A stretch of 37,942 nt of DNA, taken from IMG/VR virus record IMGVR_UViG_3300020213_000303, positions 1 to 37,942 of that record; one strand, written 5' to 3'. Below the pieces are notes generated by a model that had not been told where the DNA came from, did no database searches, and saw nothing but the letters and a program-made list of their open reading frames with translations. Shown here piece after piece: positions 1-23,737 of this stretch. The number at the start of each line of letters is the position of its first letter. The stretch's first letter is position 1. This DNA comes from a virus. A program made the position numbers and the translations under genes.

Positions 1-752
1 GGCGGGAACGAGGGGGCCGGTTGGTACGGTCCCGGCTGGTATGGTCCCGGCTGGTAGTTTGGGGGTGTTACGGGGTTGAAAGGGTCCGTACTTGGCGGGG
101 TAGCAAACGGGGGAGTCCGTTGCCCCGGCCCGCTGGCGGGGGCTTCCCCCTTGTAGTTTTTTGGCCCGGACTCTACCAAAACCTTTGCGTACCGCCTAAC
201 CGATTTGGCGATTTTATCGCGCAGCTTGGCGGGGTTCCCGTCGTAGCCCGCCTCTTGCATAACGACCGTGGCGGGGTTGCCGTAATCGCCATTGCGTGGG
301 GGTTGGATTACCAACGTAGGGTAGCTACCGATCTTGTAGCGTTCCGTCCGCCATTTTTGGGTAGCGTCTGCCGTACTGTATACGTTGAAATGCGCCCAAG
401 CCCGGCTAGTGGTCTTGCCCGTGGTAGGGTCCGTGGTTTCGACCGCCTTAATAAAAGCGTTCAATTCGGGGGACTTAACGAAGTCCACTTTAAGCGCTTC
501 GCACGATGCGCAGCCCGGCGTAGTAAACAGCGTGATAAACCATTGGTGGTTATCGTCCGGGGGCGGGGCCATTGCGCTATTAAACAAATCATCTTCGTTA
601 GCCCGTGGCCCTTCCCCGGCTACGGTAACGCTATCGCCCCGGCGGATTACTTCCGCCGTTTCAACTTGTGGCGGGGGCGTTAGGTCCGCCGCCCGGCCGT
701 AGATCGGAAGGGTAGCCGCTACAAGGGCTACCAAAATTAGAAACCGTTTCAT
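1..752 (-). CDS. Exported thioredoxin-fold protein with Pro-rich tail (3' end outside window)
   Basis: The reading frame stays open to the window edge, so the C-terminus is missing after 250 residues. The ATG at 752 follows a CGGAG ribosome site. Residues 1 to about 21 form a signal peptide (KRF, a hydrophobic run, then AxA-like cleavage near RAA). A thioredoxin fold is indicated by TTPGCASCEA (C81, C84, a CxxC redox site) and by IGSYPTLVI with the expected cis-proline P145. The last 50 residues are rich in Pro, Gly, Tyr and Gln, with a YQPGP repeat. Thioredoxin-like proteins with signal peptides act on disulfides outside the cytoplasm. It is the last visible gene of the leftward late cluster, next to an exported papain-like protease. 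The fold is well supported; the role in infection is inferred. Confidence 0.8.
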   Translation of the reverse strand, partial: MKRFLILVALVAATLPIYGRAADLTPPPQVETAEVIRRGDSVTVAGEGPRANEDDLFNSAMAPPPDDNHQWFITLFTTPGCASCEALKVDFVKSPELNAFIKAVETTDPTTGKTTSRAWAHFNVYSTADATQKWRTERYKIGSYPTLVIQPPRNGDYGNPATVVMQEAGYDGNPAKLRDKIAKSVRRYAKVLVESGPKNYKGEAPASGPGQRTPPFATPPSTDPFNPVTPPNYQPGPYQPGPYQPAPSFP

Positions 753-813
753 TTTTCGTACTCCGTGGAAACAAGGTAGAAACAAACAAACGACACTATA
801 GAGAGTTAAAGCC

Positions 814-1386
814 CTACCACCATTTAACGTAAATTGGTAGAGGGGGCGGGGCGGGGGTCTTTAGGATTACTACCCATTGCCCACTAGCCAAATGCAACCG
901 CCTAAATTCGCTTTCGCTGTACTCGTCTATACGGCTAGGCGAATTATTGTTGCAAACGTACCACGTACCGCGTTCCGGGTTGTACCAAACGAGGGTTTGG
1001 AAATGGGAACCGCCAGCCCCGATAGCCGCCATGCGCCCATTGCGGGCCGCCCATTTCATCCAATCCCAAGTATTACTACCCGTTACGTTGTAGATCGGAA
1101 TTTTCCGCCTATCGGCGTAATCCTCTACCCGTTGGGGGCCGCTCCCGCCGCGTACTGCTTTGCCGTAGTCCGTGTCCCAAAGCAGCGTAAGGGCTTGCGG
1201 ACAATTCCCTTGCCATGCGGCCCCCATCCCAATGGAACATTGCACGCAACTACCATCGGGATTACGGAACCAAACCCGCACGTCCGCCGGTAAATCCCGT
1301 TGGTCCCCTTGGATAACCCGGCTATCTTGGGCGAATACGCCCGCCGGAATTACCAAGAGTAGTAATGCCCCAACAATCGCACGCAT
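814..1386 (-). CDS. Exported papain-like cysteine protease candidate
   Basis: 190 residues starting with a clear signal peptide (MRAIVGALLLLVIPAGVFA, cleavage before Q20). The segment NPDGSCVQCSIG resembles the papain active-site stretch GSCxxCW, making C50 the likely nucleophile. GGSHFQTLVWYNP gives a candidate catalytic histidine (H128), followed by an Asn-rich WYVCNNNSP (N146-N148) where papain-like enzymes carry the third residue. The tryptophan after the nucleophile is replaced by Ser, so family membership is tentative. The start has a GAAAGGG ribosome site. It ends in a Pro-rich tail (APPPLPIYVKWW). It lies between a glycosyltransferase and an exported thioredoxin in the late operon. 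It could cleave cell-wall peptide or envelope protein; activity is inferred. Confidence 0.6.
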   Translation of the reverse strand: MRAIVGALLLLVIPAGVFAQDSRVIQGDQRDLPADVRVWFRNPDGSCVQCSIGMGAAWQGNCPQALTLLWDTDYGKAVRGGSGPQRVEDYADRRKIPIYNVTGSNTWDWMKWAARNGRMAAIGAGGSHFQTLVWYNPERGTWYVCNNNSPSRIDEYSESEFRRLHLASGQWVVILKTPAPPPLPIYVKWW

Positions 1387-1401
1387 AGAATTTCCCTTTC
1401 C

Positions 1402-2211
1402 TTAGTAAAAGCAGCGGACTTTATCCGCCCAAGCGAATGGCCCGGATACGTCCGGCGCTTGGCGGTATATCTCCCATCGTTGCCCCGGCCGGACTCCGCT
1501 TACTAATCCGATATGCCGTGCTATGTACGGATGTATTAAGTACGTTTCGTAGCCGTGTACGCGGGCCGTTTCACAAATTGCGCTATCGTAACAAGCGCGA
1601 ATATCAACCCGATTACTAAAAAACTCTATGGCGTCTTCGTAAAACGGACGAGTAACGTAGAGTAGTTGGGCGGTTACGTTACCAACCGGAACAACTCCCG
1701 GCGGGTACTCTTGCCTATGGACCACGGTTACGCCCGAAATGATGCCGGGGCGTTTATGTCTTTGCTTGTTTTGGTAGTCCAGCGAAACGATAGCGTCTTG
1801 GATTTGTTGGAACCAATCCGGTTTTAGTAGCAAATCGTCTTGCAAGAGTAGGAACCCGTCCGCGTTTTTGCACGTAGCCGCCATAAAGTTAATAGCGAAA
1901 TTGGAAGCGTTCCAAACCCCTAACGAGTCTTCCGAAATTCGCATAACATTTACTAAACCTTGCAAGCAGCGTATCGAAACGCAATCGTTTAGGTTTGGTA
2001 GTTGTAGCTCCGCTGGCGGGGTTGGGAATTCCGGCATAGGACCAATGTAGGTTTGCTCGTTCCCGTAGAGAAAGATATACCCTTGGTAAGTAACGCTCCC
2101 ATCGTCGAAAACGAAAACGGGGCTTCCGTCGATGGAAGACCCGGACAAACTGCGCAGCGTAGCGTTTAGGTACGCGGGCCGATCTTTGGTAACTATTCCG
2201 ATTGGGACCAT
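1402..2211 (-). CDS. GT-A fold glycosyltransferase (family 2-like)
   Basis: 269 residues. The N-terminus PIGIVTKDRPAYLNATLRSL is typical of nucleotide-sugar-binding GT-A enzymes. VFVFDDGS follows, and FLLLQDDLLLKPDWF supplies the DxD-type metal and sugar-nucleotide motif. No membrane segment is seen. Family 2-type enzymes transfer sugars from nucleotide donors to acceptors; in phages they modify virion proteins, host surface polymers or DNA. It sits with a methyltransferase and a phosphoribosyltransferase-HAD fusion, a combination usual in glycan pathways. A role in decorating the virion or altering the host envelope is inferred. Donor and acceptor cannot be read from sequence. Confidence 0.75.
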   Translation of the reverse strand: MVPIGIVTKDRPAYLNATLRSLSGSSIDGSPVFVFDDGSVTYQGYIFLYGNEQTYIGPMPEFPTPPAELQLPNLNDCVSIRCLQGLVNVMRISEDSLGVWNASNFAINFMAATCKNADGFLLLQDDLLLKPDWFQQIQDAIVSLDYQNKQRHKRPGIISGVTVVHRQEYPPGVVPVGNVTAQLLYVTRPFYEDAIEFFSNRVDIRACYDSAICETARVHGYETYLIHPYIARHIGLVSGVRPGQRWEIYRQAPDVSGPFAWADKVRCFY

Positions 2212-2224
2212 TGATAAACCATTC

Positions 2225-3106
2225 CTAGTCTTGGTACATCGTTAGCGTAGAGGAACAAAAGACCGCTTTACCAGTAGCTTGGTAGATTTGTTTAGCTTGG
2301 TTATCTCCGCTTTCGACGAAGACCATTAGCGTTTCGTCCGCTAGGTAGGCGTCCGCTTTACGCTTGAAAGGGTAGCCGTCTTCGCTTGCTCGTTCCTTGG
2401 TAGTCTTGGCGGGGTTCATTTCCAGCCGGTCCCACGCTACGCCATGCCGTAGTAGCCATTGCTCCGTAGCCGCCCTATGGCGTTCCAAACGGTTGGTAAC
2501 GATCAAAGGGATACGATAGGACCGCTGGACGTAGAGGGGCTTGGCGTTGGCTATACAGAATTCGTAGCCGCCCTCGTCCGCGTCCACTAGGGGCGGGTCC
2601 ACGCAAAGCGCCCCGTCTATGTCCCAAGCGGTATAGCGTTGGCCCCCTTGGTTTAGCCAATTCCATTGAAACCAACGGGGGGCGTTAATAATGCGGGCGT
2701 AGAAGTTTACCCGGCTTGCCGCGTCCGCCGTTGCGTAGACCGCCGCCGTATACAACCTATCGTGCCATTCGGGGCGGGCTATTAGTAGCTCCGTTTGCAA
2801 TCGGTTAATGTCTTCCGCCCTAACTACCGCGTCTTCTACGATCAAAATAGGGGCGTCCGTGGGGACTTCCGCCGCGTGGTCCATTCTCCGCCCGGCCCCG
2901 CATAGTAGCCCGGTCTTAATAAAGGTTTCCAGACAACCTACGGGACAATGGTAATGGGTAGCCAAGAGGATAGCCGGAAGTAGCCCGGAACGCGCAACGC
3001 CCAAGACCGCCCCAATTCCCGGCGGTAGTTGGCCCGATAGGTTTAGCACGTCCCGCCCAAGATCGGCCAACGTGGTAAATTCGATTTTTGGTAGCCGCTC
3101 TTTCAT
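2225..3106 (-). CDS. Phosphoribosyltransferase-HAD phosphatase fusion
   Basis: 293 residues with two apparent domains. Residues 1 to about 150 look like a type I phosphoribosyltransferase: GIGAVLGVARSGLLPAILLA, then ILIVEDAVVRAEDI (87-100) in the place of the PRPP-binding motif, although the usual double acid is Glu-Asp with no following Thr-Gly. From about 158, AWDIDGALCVDP carries the HAD motif I aspartates (D162, D164), and PLIVTNR matches HAD motif II (T204). Such fusions occur in capsule and surface-glycan gene sets. Its stop overlaps the methyltransferase context upstream (TAATG junction at 3106), so the two are probably translationally coupled. Substrate unknown; the domain calls are fairly secure. 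Confidence 0.7.
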   Translation of the reverse strand: MKERLPKIEFTTLADLGRDVLNLSGQLPPGIGAVLGVARSGLLPAILLATHYHCPVGCLETFIKTGLLCGAGRRMDHAAEVPTDAPILIVEDAVVRAEDINRLQTELLIARPEWHDRLYTAAVYATADAASRVNFYARIINAPRWFQWNWLNQGGQRYTAWDIDGALCVDPPLVDADEGGYEFCIANAKPLYVQRSYRIPLIVTNRLERHRAATEQWLLRHGVAWDRLEMNPAKTTKERASEDGYPFKRKADAYLADETLMVFVESGDNQAKQIYQATGKAVFCSSTLTMYQD

Positions 3107-3690
3107 TACGCCCGGACTCCGCTAATAGATAGGTCTAGTATCCCGTGGTTATGGCCCCGCACGGGAACCGGGCTACGAAGATTGGTAAAGCCCACTCGTT
3201 CTAGCAACCCCTTTAGGTAGCGGTAATCGAAAGCGGCTTTATGCCAATCGCCAGCGTCCGGCCCGTGGGCGTACATCCGGCTATTAAATGCCAATACCGG
3301 GTCTTCGTTTGCTCCCATCGGCCGGTAGTTACCAGCCGCCCGCCTATGCTGGTAATGAGTAATGAGGGCGTCCAAGTCCGGTACGTGGATTTCCAAGACC
3401 CCGCCCGGCTTTAGTAACGAGTACGCTTGCCGTAGGGCGTGTTCGGAACGAGTCCAAGGGATATGCTCTAGGACGTGGGAAGCGTGGATAACGTCAAACG
3501 AGTTACCCGGAAAGGGCAACGCTTGCGCGCCGCCCCATTCGCCTACCCGGTCCATTCCTAAATGCCAACCGTCCCGCATTTCGTTAGCTCCCCTACGGAA
3601 CCCGATACCCCTTGCCCTTACGTCCAACGTGTACCACTTATCAAACGGACGTAAGGGAAAAATACCGGGGCCAATGTCCAGCCCTAGCAT
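3106..3690 (-). CDS. Class I SAM-dependent methyltransferase
   Basis: 194 residues with the Methyltransf_11-type pattern. LGLDIGPG near the start is the SAM-binding glycine loop, SFDVIHASHVLEHIPW is the motif IV region, and LLKPGGVLEIHVPD follows the last helix. The glycine loop lies only two residues from the start, shorter than usual at the N-terminus. Enzymes of this subgroup methylate sugars, small molecules or proteins and often travel with glycosyltransferases. It overlaps the preceding gene by 7 bases and abuts the next, so it belongs to one co-transcribed accessory cluster. Substrate inferred only as glycan-related. Confidence 0.75.
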   Translation of the reverse strand: MLGLDIGPGIFPLRPFDKWYTLDVRARGIGFRRGANEMRDGWHLGMDRVGEWGGAQALPFPGNSFDVIHASHVLEHIPWTRSEHALRQAYSLLKPGGVLEIHVPDLDALITHYQHRRAAGNYRPMGANEDPVLAFNSRMYAHGPDAGDWHKAAFDYRYLKGLLERVGFTNLRSPVPVRGHNHGILDLSISGVRA

Positions 3691-4304
3691 ACGTGCAACC
3701 CCACTACTACTATTAACGTGTCAATCGTCCCCTCTTGGTTTTGGACCCCTACCGTTGCCGTAATCCGGTAATCGTCCCGGCTGGTAGGATTGGTAACGGT
3801 AAACGATACCCGTTGCCCATCGTTGCTATACGTGGCGTTGCTAATCGCCCCGCCGGAAGATCGGTTAATAGATAGATCGTAGACCCCTACTACCCGCTCC
3901 CCTTCCGCCAGTAAGTTACCAAACGGTATTTCGTAGTGGCGCTCGTCTTCGTCCAACTTCATTTCCAGCGGTTCGCCCTCTACCGCCGGGTCTTCTACCC
4001 GGACGAGGGCGCGTATCGTTTCCCGCCAGCTTGATAAACCCCGTTGGGAAATGTCCGTAGCAAACGATAACGAGTACATACCCGCCACGTTTCCGGCGGA
4101 AAGTCTTACGCGGGTCTTGCTCCCGTTTTTCTGGACGAGGGCGGAGATTACGGACGGGCCGCCCGCTTCCTCTATGCTGGCGGTAGGGGTAGCGTTGGTT
4201 TTTAACCGTTGCCCCGGTTTCAAGTAATCGGACCAATCCAACGTAAACGACCGGGTTTCCCCGGCTATTAAACGTATACGGTCTTGGGCGTCGTAGCATT
4301 TCAT
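3684..4304 (-). CDS. Probable virion protein with Ig-like or baseplate-type beta domains
   Basis: 206 residues from the ATG at 4304, which overlaps the upstream stop as ATGA. A longer start at 4322 is possible, but the ATGA junction is more typical here. The N-terminal half (IRLIAGETRSFTLDWSDYL) resembles the BppU-type upper baseplate fold. The C-terminal half (VVGVYDLSINRS to the end) looks like an Ig-type beta sandwich rich in Thr and Val. No enzymatic motif is visible. Its position after tail-tip genes supports a structural role, perhaps in host binding. Family assignment is tentative. Confidence 0.5.
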   Translation of the reverse strand: MKCYDAQDRIRLIAGETRSFTLDWSDYLKPGQRLKTNATPTASIEEAGGPSVISALVQKNGSKTRVRLSAGNVAGMYSLSFATDISQRGLSSWRETIRALVRVEDPAVEGEPLEMKLDEDERHYEIPFGNLLAEGERVVGVYDLSINRSSGGAISNATYSNDGQRVSFTVTNPTSRDDYRITATVGVQNQEGTIDTLIVVVGLHVC

Positions 4305-4576
4305 TTGGGCTTGTCCCCCCATTCCATCCGAAATTTAGCGGGCCGCTCGTTTTCCTTTACCAAAGATTCCACGTAGCCCCGATGGGAGTAGCCCGCCCAA
4401 TAGGCCGCCCCGCAAAGCGTGGCGATACCTACGACAATGGAAACAATTTCGTAAACTCGTTTCATGGCGGACCAGCTCCGCTTAGAGAACGCCCGGACCA
4501 CTAACGCAATGCCCAAGCAAACGAGTAGAAACGCAACGGCCCCACAAGGGCCAATGTCAAACCAACTATTAAACAT
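4301..4576 (-). CDS. Two-helix membrane protein (holin candidate)
   Basis: 91 residues from the ATG at 4576, chosen because ACGGGAGCT lies six bases upstream; longer in-frame starts at 4582 and 4645 exist. Two hydrophobic segments are clear: about residues 10-29 (GPCGAVAFLLVCLGIALVV) and about 44-64 (YEIVSIVVGIATLCGAAYWAG). They are separated by a basic loop, and the C-terminus is charged. Small two-span membrane proteins near tail-fibre genes are often holins, which permeabilise the inner membrane for lysis. There is no sequence signature proving this, and no neighbouring endolysin is certain apart from the papain-like protease 3 kb downstream. Confidence 0.55.
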   Translation of the reverse strand: MFNSWFDIGPCGAVAFLLVCLGIALVVRAFSKRSWSAMKRVYEIVSIVVGIATLCGAAYWAGYSHRGYVESLVKENERPAKFRMEWGDKPK

Positions 4577-4663
4577 ACCCATAGCTCCCGTGTAAGAAAC
4601 AAACCCCGCCTGGGCGTCCCGTGGTACTACGGAACGCCCCGGCAACTACTAACGGACCTTGGA

Positions 4664-5449
4664 CTAATCCAAGGTAATATCCAACGCCCCATCGTCGTAT
4701 TCTACGACGTTACCAACGGCGGTAACTTGCGATACGCCAAGCGCCGCGTACATAAGCATATTCCCCGCCGTGCTGGCGTCGAATAGCGCGCAATGGGTAA
4801 GCGTTCCCCAATCGCTGGTAACGATGGTTGGGAAAGTAATAGCCCCCGTATTTTCCGTGGCCCCGCTTGCCGCCGCGTCCCAAGTATTTTTCTGGACGCG
4901 CGCGTAGCCGTTGCCGGACGGTTCCGCTAGGCCGCTGGCGGAGTCCCCCGGATTTGCCGTAGAGAGTCCTACGTAGATATTTGTTGGGACCGTGAACGAT
5001 GCAACCTTAAATACGTGGTCCAAAAATTTGTTGGCAAGGTAGGTAGAGAAACCGCCAGCATTGAACGAAACGACGATAGCGCCGATAGCGAACGTAACCA
5101 CGTTGCCAGATACCACGCTATTAGGAATGGTAAGCGCTCCGTGTCCAAGGAAGTTACCGCCGCTACTGGCGTCGAATACCGCGTAATGGGCAATCGTTCC
5201 CCAAGACCCGCTAGCCGCCGGGAACGTAACCCCGGCCGCGTTGCTGGTAGATCGGCTAGCCGCCGTTGCCCACGAATTACAAACGGTACGGGCGTAGTTG
5301 TTTCCGCTTGGTTCCGCAATCGCGCTACCCGTGTCGGTTGGGGCCGCCGTCGAAAGGGCAATGTAGATATTTGTAGGGACCGTGTACGACGTGGTTTTAA
5401 GTACGTGGTCCAACAATTTCAATTCAAGGTAATTACTTGCGCTACCCAT
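4664..5449 (-). CDS. Tail-tip or tail-fibre protein made of a tandem duplication
   Basis: 261 residues consisting of two copies of one domain, about 1-130 and 131-261. Each copy has YLxxKxLDHVxK, then FTVPTNIYVGLST, then AEPSGNxYAR, a Trp-containing stretch, ITFP, a WGT segment and a FDASxxGN segment. This pattern is common in small phage proteins found near tail fibres, where one copy is usual. Two copies in one chain suggest an internal gene duplication. The start has an AAAGGA ribosome site. It precedes the membrane protein and follows the long repeat protein. A structural or receptor-contact role is inferred. Confidence 0.65.
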   Translation of the reverse strand: MGSASNYLELKLLDHVLKTTSYTVPTNIYIALSTAAPTDTGSAIAEPSGNNYARTVCNSWATAASRSTSNAAGVTFPAASGSWGTIAHYAVFDASSGGNFLGHGALTIPNSVVSGNVVTFAIGAIVVSFNAGGFSTYLANKFLDHVFKVASFTVPTNIYVGLSTANPGDSASGLAEPSGNGYARVQKNTWDAAASGATENTGAITFPTIVTSDWGTLTHCALFDASTAGNMLMYAALGVSQVTAVGNVVEYDDGALDITLD

Positions 5450-5466: not shown

Positions 5467-7248
5467 CTAATCGTGTTCGTTAAGGGAGATTTCGGCGTAC
5501 CGTTTTGGTAACTCCCACGTTTCGCCCGCCGGAACGTCCGGCCGATTGTTACTAAACGCTAGCCGCGCGTCCAAGACCGTGGCTAACTTCCTCGTTACGT
5601 CCACTTCCCCCGCCAACGAAACGGACCCTAACATAGCCGCCGTTAATTTTCGATGGTTGGTAAGCCCGGCGGAGATAGAAAGCCCGGCCGCTATTGTGGC
5701 CCGTAGAGAACGAGATAGAACGGACGCGCGAAAGTTAGTAGCTCCCGCAATCGTTGCCGTTAGCTTTCGATTGTTAGTAAGGGTTGCCGTCCAAGACATA
5801 CGCCCGGCTACGGTAGATTGTAGGGCGTTATTTAGGCGGGGCGCTCCCATACTCTCTACCGCCGCAATGGTAGCCGTCAACTTCCGGCGGACGAGGGCGG
5901 GGGCGGTTATCGCCAGCCCGGCCGAAACCGTGGCGGTAACGCTCCGTAGATTAGCTGGCGTTGCCGTCAACCCAAGGGCCGCCGCAACCCCGGCCGATAC
6001 GTGGCGGGTATTGATAACGGCCCCGGACCCGCCAAGCCCGGCCGCTATCGTGGTCGTTAGTTTCCGCCGCGCTCCCACGGACCCCGCAAACGAGGAAACC
6101 CCGGCTAGGGTAGCCGTTAGCTTCCGCCGGACAAGGGCCGCCGCCGGGGCTACGCTCGTCCCGGCTACGACCGTGGCGGTTAGCTTCCGTGTCACAAGAT
6201 CGGCCGCCGTGGCTACGCTGGTAGCCCCGGCAACGGCCCCGGTTAGCTTCCTAGTAACGAGGGCGTCCCCGGACAAGGAAGTAGCCCCGGCAACCGTGGC
6301 GGTCGTTTTGAGGATAACGGGGGCGTCCCCGGTTAGGGATAGGCTGGCGGCTATGGTTGCCGTCAACTTTCGGACCACGGACAAGGGGGCCGCCCCGGCT
6401 TGGACCGCTCCCGCCGCCGTAGTGGTTAGCCCCCTCGTTACGTCCAGCCCGGCCGCCGCAAAGGTTACGCCAGCCCCAACCGTGGACCGCTGGTAGAGAA
6501 CGGTAGATAGCGTCCCGGACCAATTAGTAGTCCCTTGGATTGTCCGGCGGGGGCGTATGTAGTTTGTCCAGCCCGCCGCCGCTAGATCGGTGGTAGCCAC
6601 TATCGTAGCGTCCACGGGTTTTACCAATCCAAGGTAGGGCGTAGACGTTTCGATTACCGCCGCAACCGTGGCGGTTAGTTTCCTCTTGGACGAGAGTAGA
6701 CCCGCGAACGAGGAAACCGCGTTTACCGTGGCGGCTATGGACCGCGTGTTTAATAGCGTCCCATCAAACGCCATGCTAACGGAAACGGTAGACGTTACTT
6801 GTAGGTACGTGTTTAGTAACGTAGCGTCCCCAAACGCTAGGGTAGTATGCGGGTCCGCCGTTAGCTTCCGCCGGTTGGTAACGGGGGACGTGGGGAAATT
6901 AAACCCTACGTCTATCGTGGTCGTTAGCTTCCTCGTTACCAGCCCTTCCGCCGTTGCGAACGTCGTACCGGCCGCTACCGTGGACGTAACCGGCTTTAGT
7001 AGCGATAGAGGGGCCGCCGCAAAGTCCGTACCGGCCGAAACCGCCGCGTCCACTTTCAAGATTACCGCCAGCGTAGCGCTAGAGAAATCGGTAGCCCCGG
7101 CAATGGTAGCCGTTAGCTTCCTCGTTACGTCCGCCGCCGCGCTGGCAAACGAGAAAGCGCCCGCAATGGTAGCGGTTAGCTTGGTAGTAAGCGCCCCGCC
7201 GCTACTCTCGTCCGGCGGAAAGACTACTGCTAAAAGGTACGGGTCCAT
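5467..7248 (-). CDS. Long tandem-repeat virion protein (about 28 repeats)
   Basis: 593 residues, of which about 20-550 are a tandem array of 19-22 residue units with consensus TRKLTATIAGAxxFxxAxLxV. By eye I count about 28 units, some degenerate (for example TRSIAATVNAVSSF and LYQRSTVGAGVTF). The regular alternation of Thr/Ala strands suggests a beta-helix or beta-sandwich stack forming a fibre. A unique tail (about 550-593, ending RPDVPAGETWELPKRYAEI) may attach it to a partner. Similar repeats occur in phage fibre-like proteins. Lateral homology between units would let copy number change by recombination. The role as a tail or head fibre is inferred from repeats and location. Confidence 0.65.
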   Translation of the reverse strand: MDPYLLAVVFPPDESSGGALTTKLTATIAGAFSFASAAADVTRKLTATIAGATDFSSATLAVILKVDAAVSAGTDFAAAPLSLLKPVTSTVAAGTTFATAEGLVTRKLTTTIDVGFNFPTSPVTNRRKLTADPHTTLAFGDATLLNTYLQVTSTVSVSMAFDGTLLNTRSIAATVNAVSSFAGLLSSKRKLTATVAAVIETSTPYLGLVKPVDATIVATTDLAAAGWTNYIRPRRTIQGTTNWSGTLSTVLYQRSTVGAGVTFAAAGLDVTRGLTTTAAGAVQAGAAPLSVVRKLTATIAASLSLTGDAPVILKTTATVAGATSLSGDALVTRKLTGAVAGATSVATAADLVTRKLTATVVAGTSVAPAAALVRRKLTATLAGVSSFAGSVGARRKLTTTIAAGLGGSGAVINTRHVSAGVAAALGLTATPANLRSVTATVSAGLAITAPALVRRKLTATIAAVESMGAPRLNNALQSTVAGRMSWTATLTNNRKLTATIAGATNFRASVLSRSLRATIAAGLSISAGLTNHRKLTAAMLGSVSLAGEVDVTRKLATVLDARLAFSNNRPDVPAGETWELPKRYAEISLNEHD

Positions 7249-22237: not shown

Positions 22238-23592
22238 TACAGTAACCCGCCTTTCCTAGACTTTACTAAAACCCGTTGCAAAAAATAGGCGGTAGACCGC
22301 TTGCGCTCCCGCAACGTATCTACTACCGCTTCGTCTACGGTCCCCCTCGTTACCAAATCGACTATTAAAACGGGTTCCGTCTTCGTCATATCGTCCGCCC
22401 GCGCTTCGCATTGTCCACGTATGCCCCAATCCCATACGTTACTGTAAAAAATCATGGCGTCCGCAAACGAGAGATTTAGGGCGTATTGCCCTATCTTGGA
22501 TTGTACTATTAAAACGTCAAAGTCCCCCGCCCGGAACGAGTCCAACAAAGTAGCCCGCCGGTCCCGTGGGGTTAAGCCCGTAATCTTACGGGCCGATAGT
22601 CCCTCTTGGGCTAACCGGCGGGCTACTAATGTTATCTCCCTAGAGAATCTTGCCCATACGATTACGCGCCGCCCGCGTAGCTCCCCCTTTAATAACGCTA
22701 CTAGCTCGTTCGCTTTCGCTTGGGAGCAAAGCAAGCGGGCCGCGTCGTATTCCGGCGGGACTATTCCGCCCGCCAATTGGGCGAACCAATTAGCCGTAAC
22801 TACGGTCCATTTCGTTTCGCCAGCCCCGCAAGCAAAGTCTTTACTAATCTGGCGGTAGATCGTTCGTAGCTTGGGCGATAGCTCTACGTGGCGGGTTTCG
22901 TAGACCTTGGGAACGAATAACCCCGCTTGCTTCGTTGTTTTGATAAACGCCAGCCGCCGGACTTCCGCCCGTAGCTGCTTGCGTACTCCGTCTTTTAGTA
23001 GCCACTCAAACCCGGCTTGGTACATATACCGCTTACGCCAAGTCCAAAAGTCCCGGCAACCCATAAAGACGCCAAAGACCGTTAATAGTTGGGTAACGTA
23101 ATCTTGTGGCCCGCCGGGGTCCGGTAGCCCGGTAAGAATGGCCCGCTTAGGGGCGTCCAGCTTGCGTAACAATAGCTTACTAATCTTCGCTTGTGGATTA
23201 GTTAGCCAACCGCCGGACTCGTCCATTATGACGGCTTCCCACGGACGGGCGGTTAGTAACGAGGGACAAGCGCGTAGCCCTTCCGGGTTTGTAACGAACC
23301 AACGGCTAGACGTACTGGCGTCTAGTGTCCGTAATTTTGCTTTCGTACTCCCGGCAAGGGCCACGGCTTGGACTCCCTCTAGTTTTAGCTCCCGCTCCCA
23401 AACGTAGATCGTAGTAGCGGGGGTAACTATCAAAACGTAATCGTCTTCCGTTGTTTCATTCTTCCCCCATCGTATCGCTACTAGCGATTTGCCTAACCGC
23501 ATTTGCATTAGTAACGCTATGCGGTCTTTCCCCGCCGCATACGCTAGGGCTTCCGTTTGATGGGGGCGGGCTTTCCGGGGTTTCGTTTTCAT
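22237..23592 (-). CDS. SNF2-family DNA translocase/helicase
   Basis: 451 residues. Motif Q/I region: RPHQTEALAYAA and MQMRLGKSLVAI (GKS at 34-36). Motif II is VIMDESGGW (D124-E125). Motif III is AILTGLPDPG. The second RecA domain has RRVIVWARFSREI, QSKIGQYALNLSFADA and QCEARADDMTK (motifs IV-VI). This is the SNF2 pattern; phage members remodel or migrate DNA forks and junctions. The start has GGCGGAG and overlaps the end of csrA by 137 bases. It heads the recombination set with RuvC-like, nuclease and Sak4-like partners. Confidence 0.85.
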   Translation of the reverse strand: MKTKPRKARPHQTEALAYAAGKDRIALLMQMRLGKSLVAIRWGKNETTEDDYVLIVTPATTIYVWERELKLEGVQAVALAGSTKAKLRTLDASTSSRWFVTNPEGLRACPSLLTARPWEAVIMDESGGWLTNPQAKISKLLLRKLDAPKRAILTGLPDPGGPQDYVTQLLTVFGVFMGCRDFWTWRKRYMYQAGFEWLLKDGVRKQLRAEVRRLAFIKTTKQAGLFVPKVYETRHVELSPKLRTIYRQISKDFACGAGETKWTVVTANWFAQLAGGIVPPEYDAARLLCSQAKANELVALLKGELRGRRVIVWARFSREITLVARRLAQEGLSARKITGLTPRDRRATLLDSFRAGDFDVLIVQSKIGQYALNLSFADAMIFYSNVWDWGIRGQCEARADDMTKTEPVLIVDLVTRGTVDEAVVDTLRERKRSTAYFLQRVLVKSRKGGLL

Positions 23593-23737
23593 CGTCGCCT
23601 AACTCCGCCCGGACAATCCGGTAGCCGGGGGCTTCTATCCCGATACGTACCTTACGCCCGCCGATCTTTACCAGCGTTATTAACACGTCTTCCCCTACCT
23701 TGATTTGCTCCCCTACCATCCTTGATAAAACTAGCAT
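23456..23737 (-). CDS. csrA: CsrA-family RNA-binding translational regulator
   Basis: 93 residues. The first 46 are a clear CsrA: MLVLSRMVGEQIKVGEDV, then KVRIGIEAP and GYRIVRAEL. Arg6 is kept, and one loop residue is missing so that Arg43 aligns with the RNA-contacting Arg44 of E. coli CsrA. The remaining half (GDDENETPESPPPSNGSP onward) is low-complexity and overlaps the helicase start in another frame. CsrA dimers bind GGA motifs in mRNA leaders and block or alter translation. Here the phage's own leaders are strongly GGAG-type, so self or host targets are both possible. Family assignment is firm; the target is inferred. Confidence 0.9.
   Translation of the reverse strand: MLVLSRMVGEQIKVGEDVLITLVKIGGRKVRIGIEAPGYRIVRAELGDDENETPESPPPSNGSPSVCGGERPHSVTNANAVRQIASSDTMGEE

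Follow-up and report, generated by a model that had tools for sequence, protein, structure and literature searches.

Two adjacent genes encode predicted exported proteins

The stretch of DNA analysed, hereafter the window, is a 37,942-base IMG/VR virus record. Near its first base lie two neighbouring ORFs, for both of which the minus strand is the sensible reading. We refer to the product of 814-1386(-) as PAP and to that of 3-752(-) as TRX. The features of the locus are as follows.

1394..1403, minus strand: Shine-Dalgarno-like AAGGAAAGGG before PAP (sequence reading)
814..1386, minus strand: PAP, predicted exported papain-like cysteine hydrolase, 190 aa (AF2 model, PDB fold matches, conservation)
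761..764, minus strand: Shine-Dalgarno-like GGAG before TRX (sequence reading)
3..752, minus strand: TRX, predicted exported thioredoxin-fold protein, ATG at 752, 250 aa to the contig end (Pfam score below cut-off, AF2 model, fold matches)

The two genes are separated by 61 nt. PAP begins with a hydrophobic stretch ending in ...GVFA/QD, contains C47, C50, H128 and N146-N148, and terminates in ...YVKWW. TRX has a signal-like N-terminus, a CASC motif at residues 81-84, a proline at the cis-Pro position (P145) and a Pro-rich end; its tail is truncated in the window because the frame reaches the contig end (base 3) without a stop. The listed PAP residues, the signal-like N-termini and CASC all agree with a first-pass annotation of this DNA, which had proposed an exported protease activated by an exported thioredoxin.

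In Pfam, PHROGs and NCBIfam, neither PAP nor TRX reached the cut-off of any family. TRX scored 25.2 bits against Pfam Thioredoxin_2 (E = 2.1e-5), just under the 27-bit cut-off. The PADLOC models of anti-phage defence did not match any of the six proteins tested.

PAP and TRX form an obligate pair in planctomycete phages

Searching viral contigs with PAP initially recovered 22 relatives with 54-72% identity, and a profile scan recovered 91, of which 80 were kept. Thirteen relatives were found on bacterial genome contigs, nearly all of them Planctomycetota MAGs and one labelled Rhodospirillaceae. These proteins, with PAP itself, are referred to below as subfamily 1. No subfamily-1 PAP was found in 50,697 deposited phage records, and phage isolates contained no match to this subfamily or to the second one described below.

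We found a TRX homologue downstream of PAP in 88 of 94 planctomycete phage and MAG loci, corresponding to 88 of the 89 loci with room for it. The homologue was directly downstream except in locus L095, where it lay 951 nt away. Five of the six loci without TRX end ≤69 nt from PAP, and the sixth, L036, has a broken PAP. In 392 Planctomycetota genomes, the PAP profile yielded three strong matches and one distant match (genome G419). A separate TRX search of these genomes returned the same three, each with TRX adjacent to PAP, and none other at E ≤ 1e-8; in one of them, G411, the pair lies on a 6.96-Mb contig. A scan with the single TRX sequence found no relatives because TRX diverges fast, and its relatives were found via the neighbourhood of PAP instead. 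These data confirm that the pair is real and far more general than the window alone. It is not a product of chance, because PAP has many relatives (22, then 91), and TRX accompanies it in 88 of the 89 loci that leave room; what had been noted as two adjacent genes is an obligate pairing.

Identities of PAP and of the TRX core domain correlated over 630 pairs (r = 0.74). A mirror-tree comparison using whole TRX ORFs, with their variable ends, gave r = 0.49 versus 0.53 for PAP and capsid; the latter figure belongs to the whole-ORF comparison and is hence no yardstick for the domain-only value. Co-inheritance of PAP and TRX rests on adjacency and co-occurrence, not on r = 0.74. The family lacks a match above cut-off in Pfam, PHROGs and NCBIfam, is absent from the 50,697 phage records and is therefore unnamed in these resources. 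PAP/TRX is novel both as a family and as a combination.

A divergent second subfamily retains the pair

The distant PAP match in G419 (locus L155) led to 51 viral loci that constitute a second, divergent subfamily; the counts given here are over 52 rows, which include one contig twice (L165 = L181). The subfamily-2 enzyme reads GSC[VT][HW]A..., GGAHM and LDNN, such that C47, H128 and Asp/Asn-Asn are kept and C50 is replaced by Ala. One member matched Peptidase_C39_2 weakly across the corresponding region (E = 0.062; 14.3 bits versus a cut-off of 24). A Trx-like partner with a C-terminal TM helix is encoded downstream of the enzyme in every row. None of the 47 partners with a located motif region has CxxC.

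The subfamily-2 cassette comprises the pair and three further conserved genes near terminase, which follows the cassette in the loci read in detail. A TM-plus-helix protein occurs in 51 of the 52 rows and a separate canonical CxxC thioredoxin in 47 (e.g., L165 9812-10165), 34 having a lipobox pattern. A protein encoded ∼0.4-1.2 kb upstream of the enzyme in 46 rows (e.g., L165 7222-7926) resembles a permuted NlpC/P60 hydrolase by eye and could be the endolysin in these phages; it had no Pfam or PDB sequence match.

Two further observations concern these loci. In L155 (2091-2363) and L164 (7732-8004), the enzyme is directly preceded by a gene for a 90-aa protein with an N-terminal helical part and a C-terminal TM segment, which looks holin- or XhlA-like by eye and matched, weakly, only an unnamed PHROG. 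L176 and L184 are two subfamily-2 cassettes on a single 103-kb contig (IMGVR_UViG_3300050333_000165), representing either joined phages or a duplicated cassette.

PAP is predicted to adopt a papain-like fold with C47 as the likely nucleophile

The AF2 model of PAP, based on 45 aligned relatives, had a pLDDT of 89 and a pTM of 0.81. The top PDB fold matches were all papain-like, the best among the matches listed being 9l5u (VIA Z 13.3). Others were the CdiA-CT toxin 8ssm (Z 12.8), the C39-like protein 3erv (Z 12.4), PeiR (Z 11.7), and PCAT1 and ComA (Z ∼10-12). Identity to C39-type enzymes in the structural alignments was ∼7-17%. Toxins, peptide-processing proteases and phytochelatin synthase are among the closest solved structures; these do not act on walls, which weighs against PAP being a wall hydrolase. 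A sequence-based link to solved structures was dropped: phmmer and hmmsearch of PDB sequences returned only chance or spurious matches, the latter to designed repeat proteins.

The model has the α+β core of the papain-like superfamily, and its Cys, His and third polar residue are placed as in that superfamily. The papain-like fold initially suggested for the product of 814-1386 was thus borne out by structure prediction. The accompanying premise that papain-like enzymes are rare in phage lysis does not hold generally, as CHAP and NlpC/P60 lysins belong to the same superfamily (PMC10318531).

The canonical papain-like triad consists of Cys, His and a third polar residue (PMC10318531). In the PAP model, the helix spanning residues 47-59 starts at C47, H128 immediately precedes the strand 129-136, and N146 immediately follows the strand 141-145. 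The model points to C47, H128 and N146 as a putative triad. Of 76 non-redundant subfamily-1 PAPs, all have C47, 75 have C50 and 72 have C145. H128 and N147 are invariant in the PAP alignment (A2), and position 146 is occupied by Asn or Asp. G-S-C, H and N-N are common to both subfamilies. At the oxyanion-hole position, PAP has no Gln six residues before C47; N42, five residues before it, is invariant in subfamily 1 and unaligned in subfamily 2.

C50 lies one turn after C47, the two forming a CVQC motif (C47-V-Q-C50) at the start of the helix. According to the alignments, C47 is the likely nucleophile, because it is never replaced and lies at the helix start, while C50 is Ala in the loci L083 and L084 and in subfamily 2. 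C50, which had been proposed as the catalytic residue, was ruled out on the same grounds: Ala takes its place in one lineage of subfamily 1 and in the whole of subfamily 2. A strict C50-C145 disulfide was likewise unsupported, since each of these residues is lost without the other. The two loci of the subfamily-1 lineage, L083 (7896-8549) and L084 (5629-6282), encode PAPs that carry Ala in place of C50 and Gln in place of D44, with partners that keep CxxC; they represent a natural test of which PAP cysteine is catalytic.

TRX has a conserved scaffold with a predicted membrane anchor, and a dispensable CxxC

In the AF2 model of the window's TRX, the ten-residue blocks from residues 61 to 190 had pLDDT values of 88-98 and the Pro-rich end was disordered. 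PDB matches included thioredoxin (Z 9.7) and a Trx-fold protein of Helicobacter pylori (4fyb; Z 9.4), and the listed rows, with Z of 8.4-9.7, were thioredoxin-fold chains or thioredoxin fusions. The cis-Pro loop of the fold is present, and P145 is invariant. These data substantiate the thioredoxin fold first read from the sequence of 3-752.

Full-length TRX relatives start with a hydrophobic segment (56 of 69), continue through the Trx domain and a Pro-rich linker, and end in a TM helix (69 of 71) with a short tail after it. The Pro-rich tail described initially is therefore present in the window, but in relatives it is a linker to the C-terminal TM helix. At the level of sequence, export signals are seen on both PAP and TRX, in agreement with the signal peptides originally assigned.

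The invariant positions of TRX are G39, W71, P145, QPP150-152 and G158, and do not include the CxxC. The latter occurs in 62 of 75 subfamily-1 partners and is missing in 13, with at least about eight changes between presence and absence on the PAP tree. The window's TRX has the CxxC of a redox-active thioredoxin; its Thioredoxin_2 score is below cut-off. Overall, the redox centre is common yet dispensable, and the scaffold is not dispensable.

These patterns bear on the proposal that PAP is activated by thiol chemistry, whereby the CASC of TRX would hold the catalytic cysteine of PAP in its reduced form outside the cytoplasm or open a C47-C50 disulfide, comparable to the disulfide caging of P1 Lyz. 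Consistent with such a role, almost every subfamily-1 PAP has CVQC at the helix start, and 62 of 75 partners have CxxC. Moreover, subfamily 2 lacks both C50 and the partner CxxC, yet 47 of 52 rows carry the separate CxxC thioredoxin, often with a lipobox. Disulfide-controlled phage endolysins exist (Xu 2005 and Kuty 2010, as cited in PMC9025707). Against it, the CxxC has been gained or lost at least eight times while C47 and C50 were kept, and no relative of the separate subfamily-2 thioredoxin was found near CxxC-less subfamily-1 pairs. Conversely, L083 and L084 lack C50 but keep CxxC, and the invariant residues of TRX lie elsewhere. We consider redox activation unlikely to be what the pair is for. 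As a general mechanism, the proposal that TRX keeps the protease cysteine reduced was not upheld: reduction of a PAP cysteine cannot be the conserved function of TRX, because CxxC is lost in 13 of 75 subfamily-1 partners and in all 47 subfamily-2 partners with a located motif region. Whatever TRX does must require its Trx scaffold and membrane anchor, not the cysteines, such that holding, presenting or inhibiting PAP is likelier than reducing it.

The pair lies among late genes in phage records without the common lysins searched for

The neighbours of the subfamily-1 pair are genes for terminase, portal, capsid, cement, head-tail joining and tail proteins; its exact place among them differs between phages, as would be expected of a self-standing cassette. 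The window's copy comes after the genes for fibre and adaptor (Gp80, Gp77). The late, structural operon setting attributed to the pair was thus supported by its virion-morphogenesis neighbours, and a late-gene cassette is the arrangement expected of a phage lysis module.

Pair-carrying records, some of which may be fragments, were searched for eight families of wall-cutting enzymes. Amidase_2, Phage_lysozyme, M15_4, M23, CHAP and SLT were found in none of 28 records (1.27 Mb), and control genomes were positive. NLPC_P60 was found in none of 36 records and M15_3 in none of 20. Phages can carry lysins outside these eight families. A PHROG scan of 28 window genes detected tail, neck and Holliday-resolvase families and no lysis family, and in a Pfam scan, the best 25 families of a 41.7-kb relative included no lysin; a 65-kb relative, for which more families matched than were listed, was left out of this evidence of absence. 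In line with a wall target, planctomycetes have a peptidoglycan wall that is sensitive to lysozyme (PMC4432640).

No dependable holin was found beside the subfamily-1 pair. One gene of the window is a lead only:

4301..4645, minus strand: small protein with apparently two membrane segments, possible holin (sequence inspection)

The gene belongs to the block that contains the pair, upstream of it, and its product had no family match over cut-off.

Other genes of the window were also annotated. The region directly upstream of the pair, 1402-3690(-), encodes a weakly glycosyltransferase-like protein, a SAM methyltransferase and a protein whose parts weakly resemble phosphoribosyltransferase and polynucleotide kinase, possibly a glycan or nucleotide modification cluster beside the fibre genes. 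A single protein encoded by 4664-5449(-) has two tandem Gp80 podophage fibre domains. The adjoining 5467-7248(-) encodes a 593-aa protein with many degenerate repeats around RKLTATIAGxxxF and no PHROG match. By eye, the product of 23456-23737(-) resembles a phage-encoded CsrA (MLVLSRMVGEQIKVGEDVLITLVKIGGRKVRIGIEAP...).

PAP and TRX are a candidate lysis module

We propose, with a probability of roughly one half, that a large group of tailed phages of planctomycetes uses PAP and TRX as its module for envelope attack (lysis). The pair is the best lysis candidate for these phages because all other common wall-cutting enzymes that were looked for are absent. According to this model, PAP would be made late, exported by the Sec pathway and folded into a C39-like papain fold with C47, H128 and N146 in the active site. 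Its most likely substrate would be host peptidoglycan, cleaved at a peptide or amide bond, or else an essential envelope protein. TRX would be exported alongside PAP, with its C-terminal helix anchored in the inner membrane and its Trx-fold domain in the periplasm. There, it may bind PAP, holding it in place or restraining it until the membrane fails. In the majority of members, the CxxC together with C50 beside the nucleophile (CVQC) may add a redox setting, an accessory layer because it is lost repeatedly. Our first interpretation of the locus as a papain-like, exported and likely lytic or envelope-active system stands in this respect; C50 as the nucleophile and thiol activation as the conserved role do not.

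A more specific version is tentative, and we give it considerably less credence: an exported papain-like endolysin gated by a dedicated, membrane-anchored Trx-fold protein, with CVQC and the optional CxxC as a redox switch, would be the main lysis system of planctomycete phages and a new principle of lysis control. In the papers searched, we found no account of how phages of Planctomycetota lyse their hosts. The pair offers a concrete two-gene lysis candidate in planctomycete phages without the usual lysins, and possibly a novel mode of control for an extracytoplasmic phage enzyme.

Alternatively, PAP could be a toxin that attacks the envelope of the host or of competitors, with TRX as a membrane-anchored immunity protein or regulator that protects the producer; the pair would then confer an advantage on lysogens instead of effecting lysis. 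The highest Z scores of PAP are to papain-like toxins of contact-dependent inhibition and of toxin/immunity pairs (9l5u, 13.3; 8ssm, 12.8), and PAP and TRX are similarly a two-gene, obligate unit with the enzyme first. However, the Z scores of the top papain-like matches differ by only ∼1, so they show no preference for toxins. PAP has no toxin delivery domain, its partner is a predicted exported, anchored Trx-fold protein, and the pair is embedded in virion-morphogenesis genes of phages in which no lysin was found. We regard this explanation as improbable. A role in the virion or its assembly, in which PAP would act at the membrane to process a virion protein, or TRX would catalyse disulfides in virion proteins, is very improbable: many relatives do have the pair between their capsid and tail genes, but both proteins carry export signals, TRX has a membrane anchor, the position of the pair relative to individual structural genes changes freely, and CxxC is dispensable. 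Both roles are less likely than a lysis module.

Comparison with known systems

As a lysis module, the pair has partial counterparts among characterized proteins. PAP resembles C39 and C39-like proteins (PCAT1, ComA and 3erv of Bacillus) in fold (Z ∼10-12.4) and in the placement of Cys, His and Asn/Asp. C39 peptidases are N-terminal domains of ABC exporters, whereas PAP is a stand-alone protein of 190 aa with an export signal and no ABC transporter, and the window's PAP had no match over cut-off to the Peptidase C39 model.

P1 Lyz has a lysozyme fold and a self-contained switch, with no known partner protein. It provides a precedent for an exported, disulfide-controlled phage wall enzyme, from which PAP differs by its papain fold and its partner. 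More specifically, P1 Lyz is a SAR endolysin, a Sec-exported wall enzyme under disulfide control, as described in PMC9025707 and in works cited there.

The pseudomurein endoisopeptidases PeiW, PeiP and PeiR are virus-encoded and lyse walls by cutting an isopeptide bond (PMC4592898). Like the proposed PAP, they are lysis enzymes of phages or proviruses, and the fold of PeiR matches that of PAP with the Z of 11.7 given above. They differ in their methanogen (archaeal) hosts and in the wall attacked, and no sequence kinship with PAP was seen. We know of no thioredoxin partner of these enzymes.

Finally, the window's TRX has the fold, CxxC and cis-Pro position of thioredoxins and periplasmic Trx-fold proteins such as 4fyb. 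Unlike these, it has an N-terminal extension with conserved R-G, W and SWAH/QPP motifs, and the family is set apart by the Pro-rich linker, the C-terminal TM anchor and the frequent loss of CxxC.
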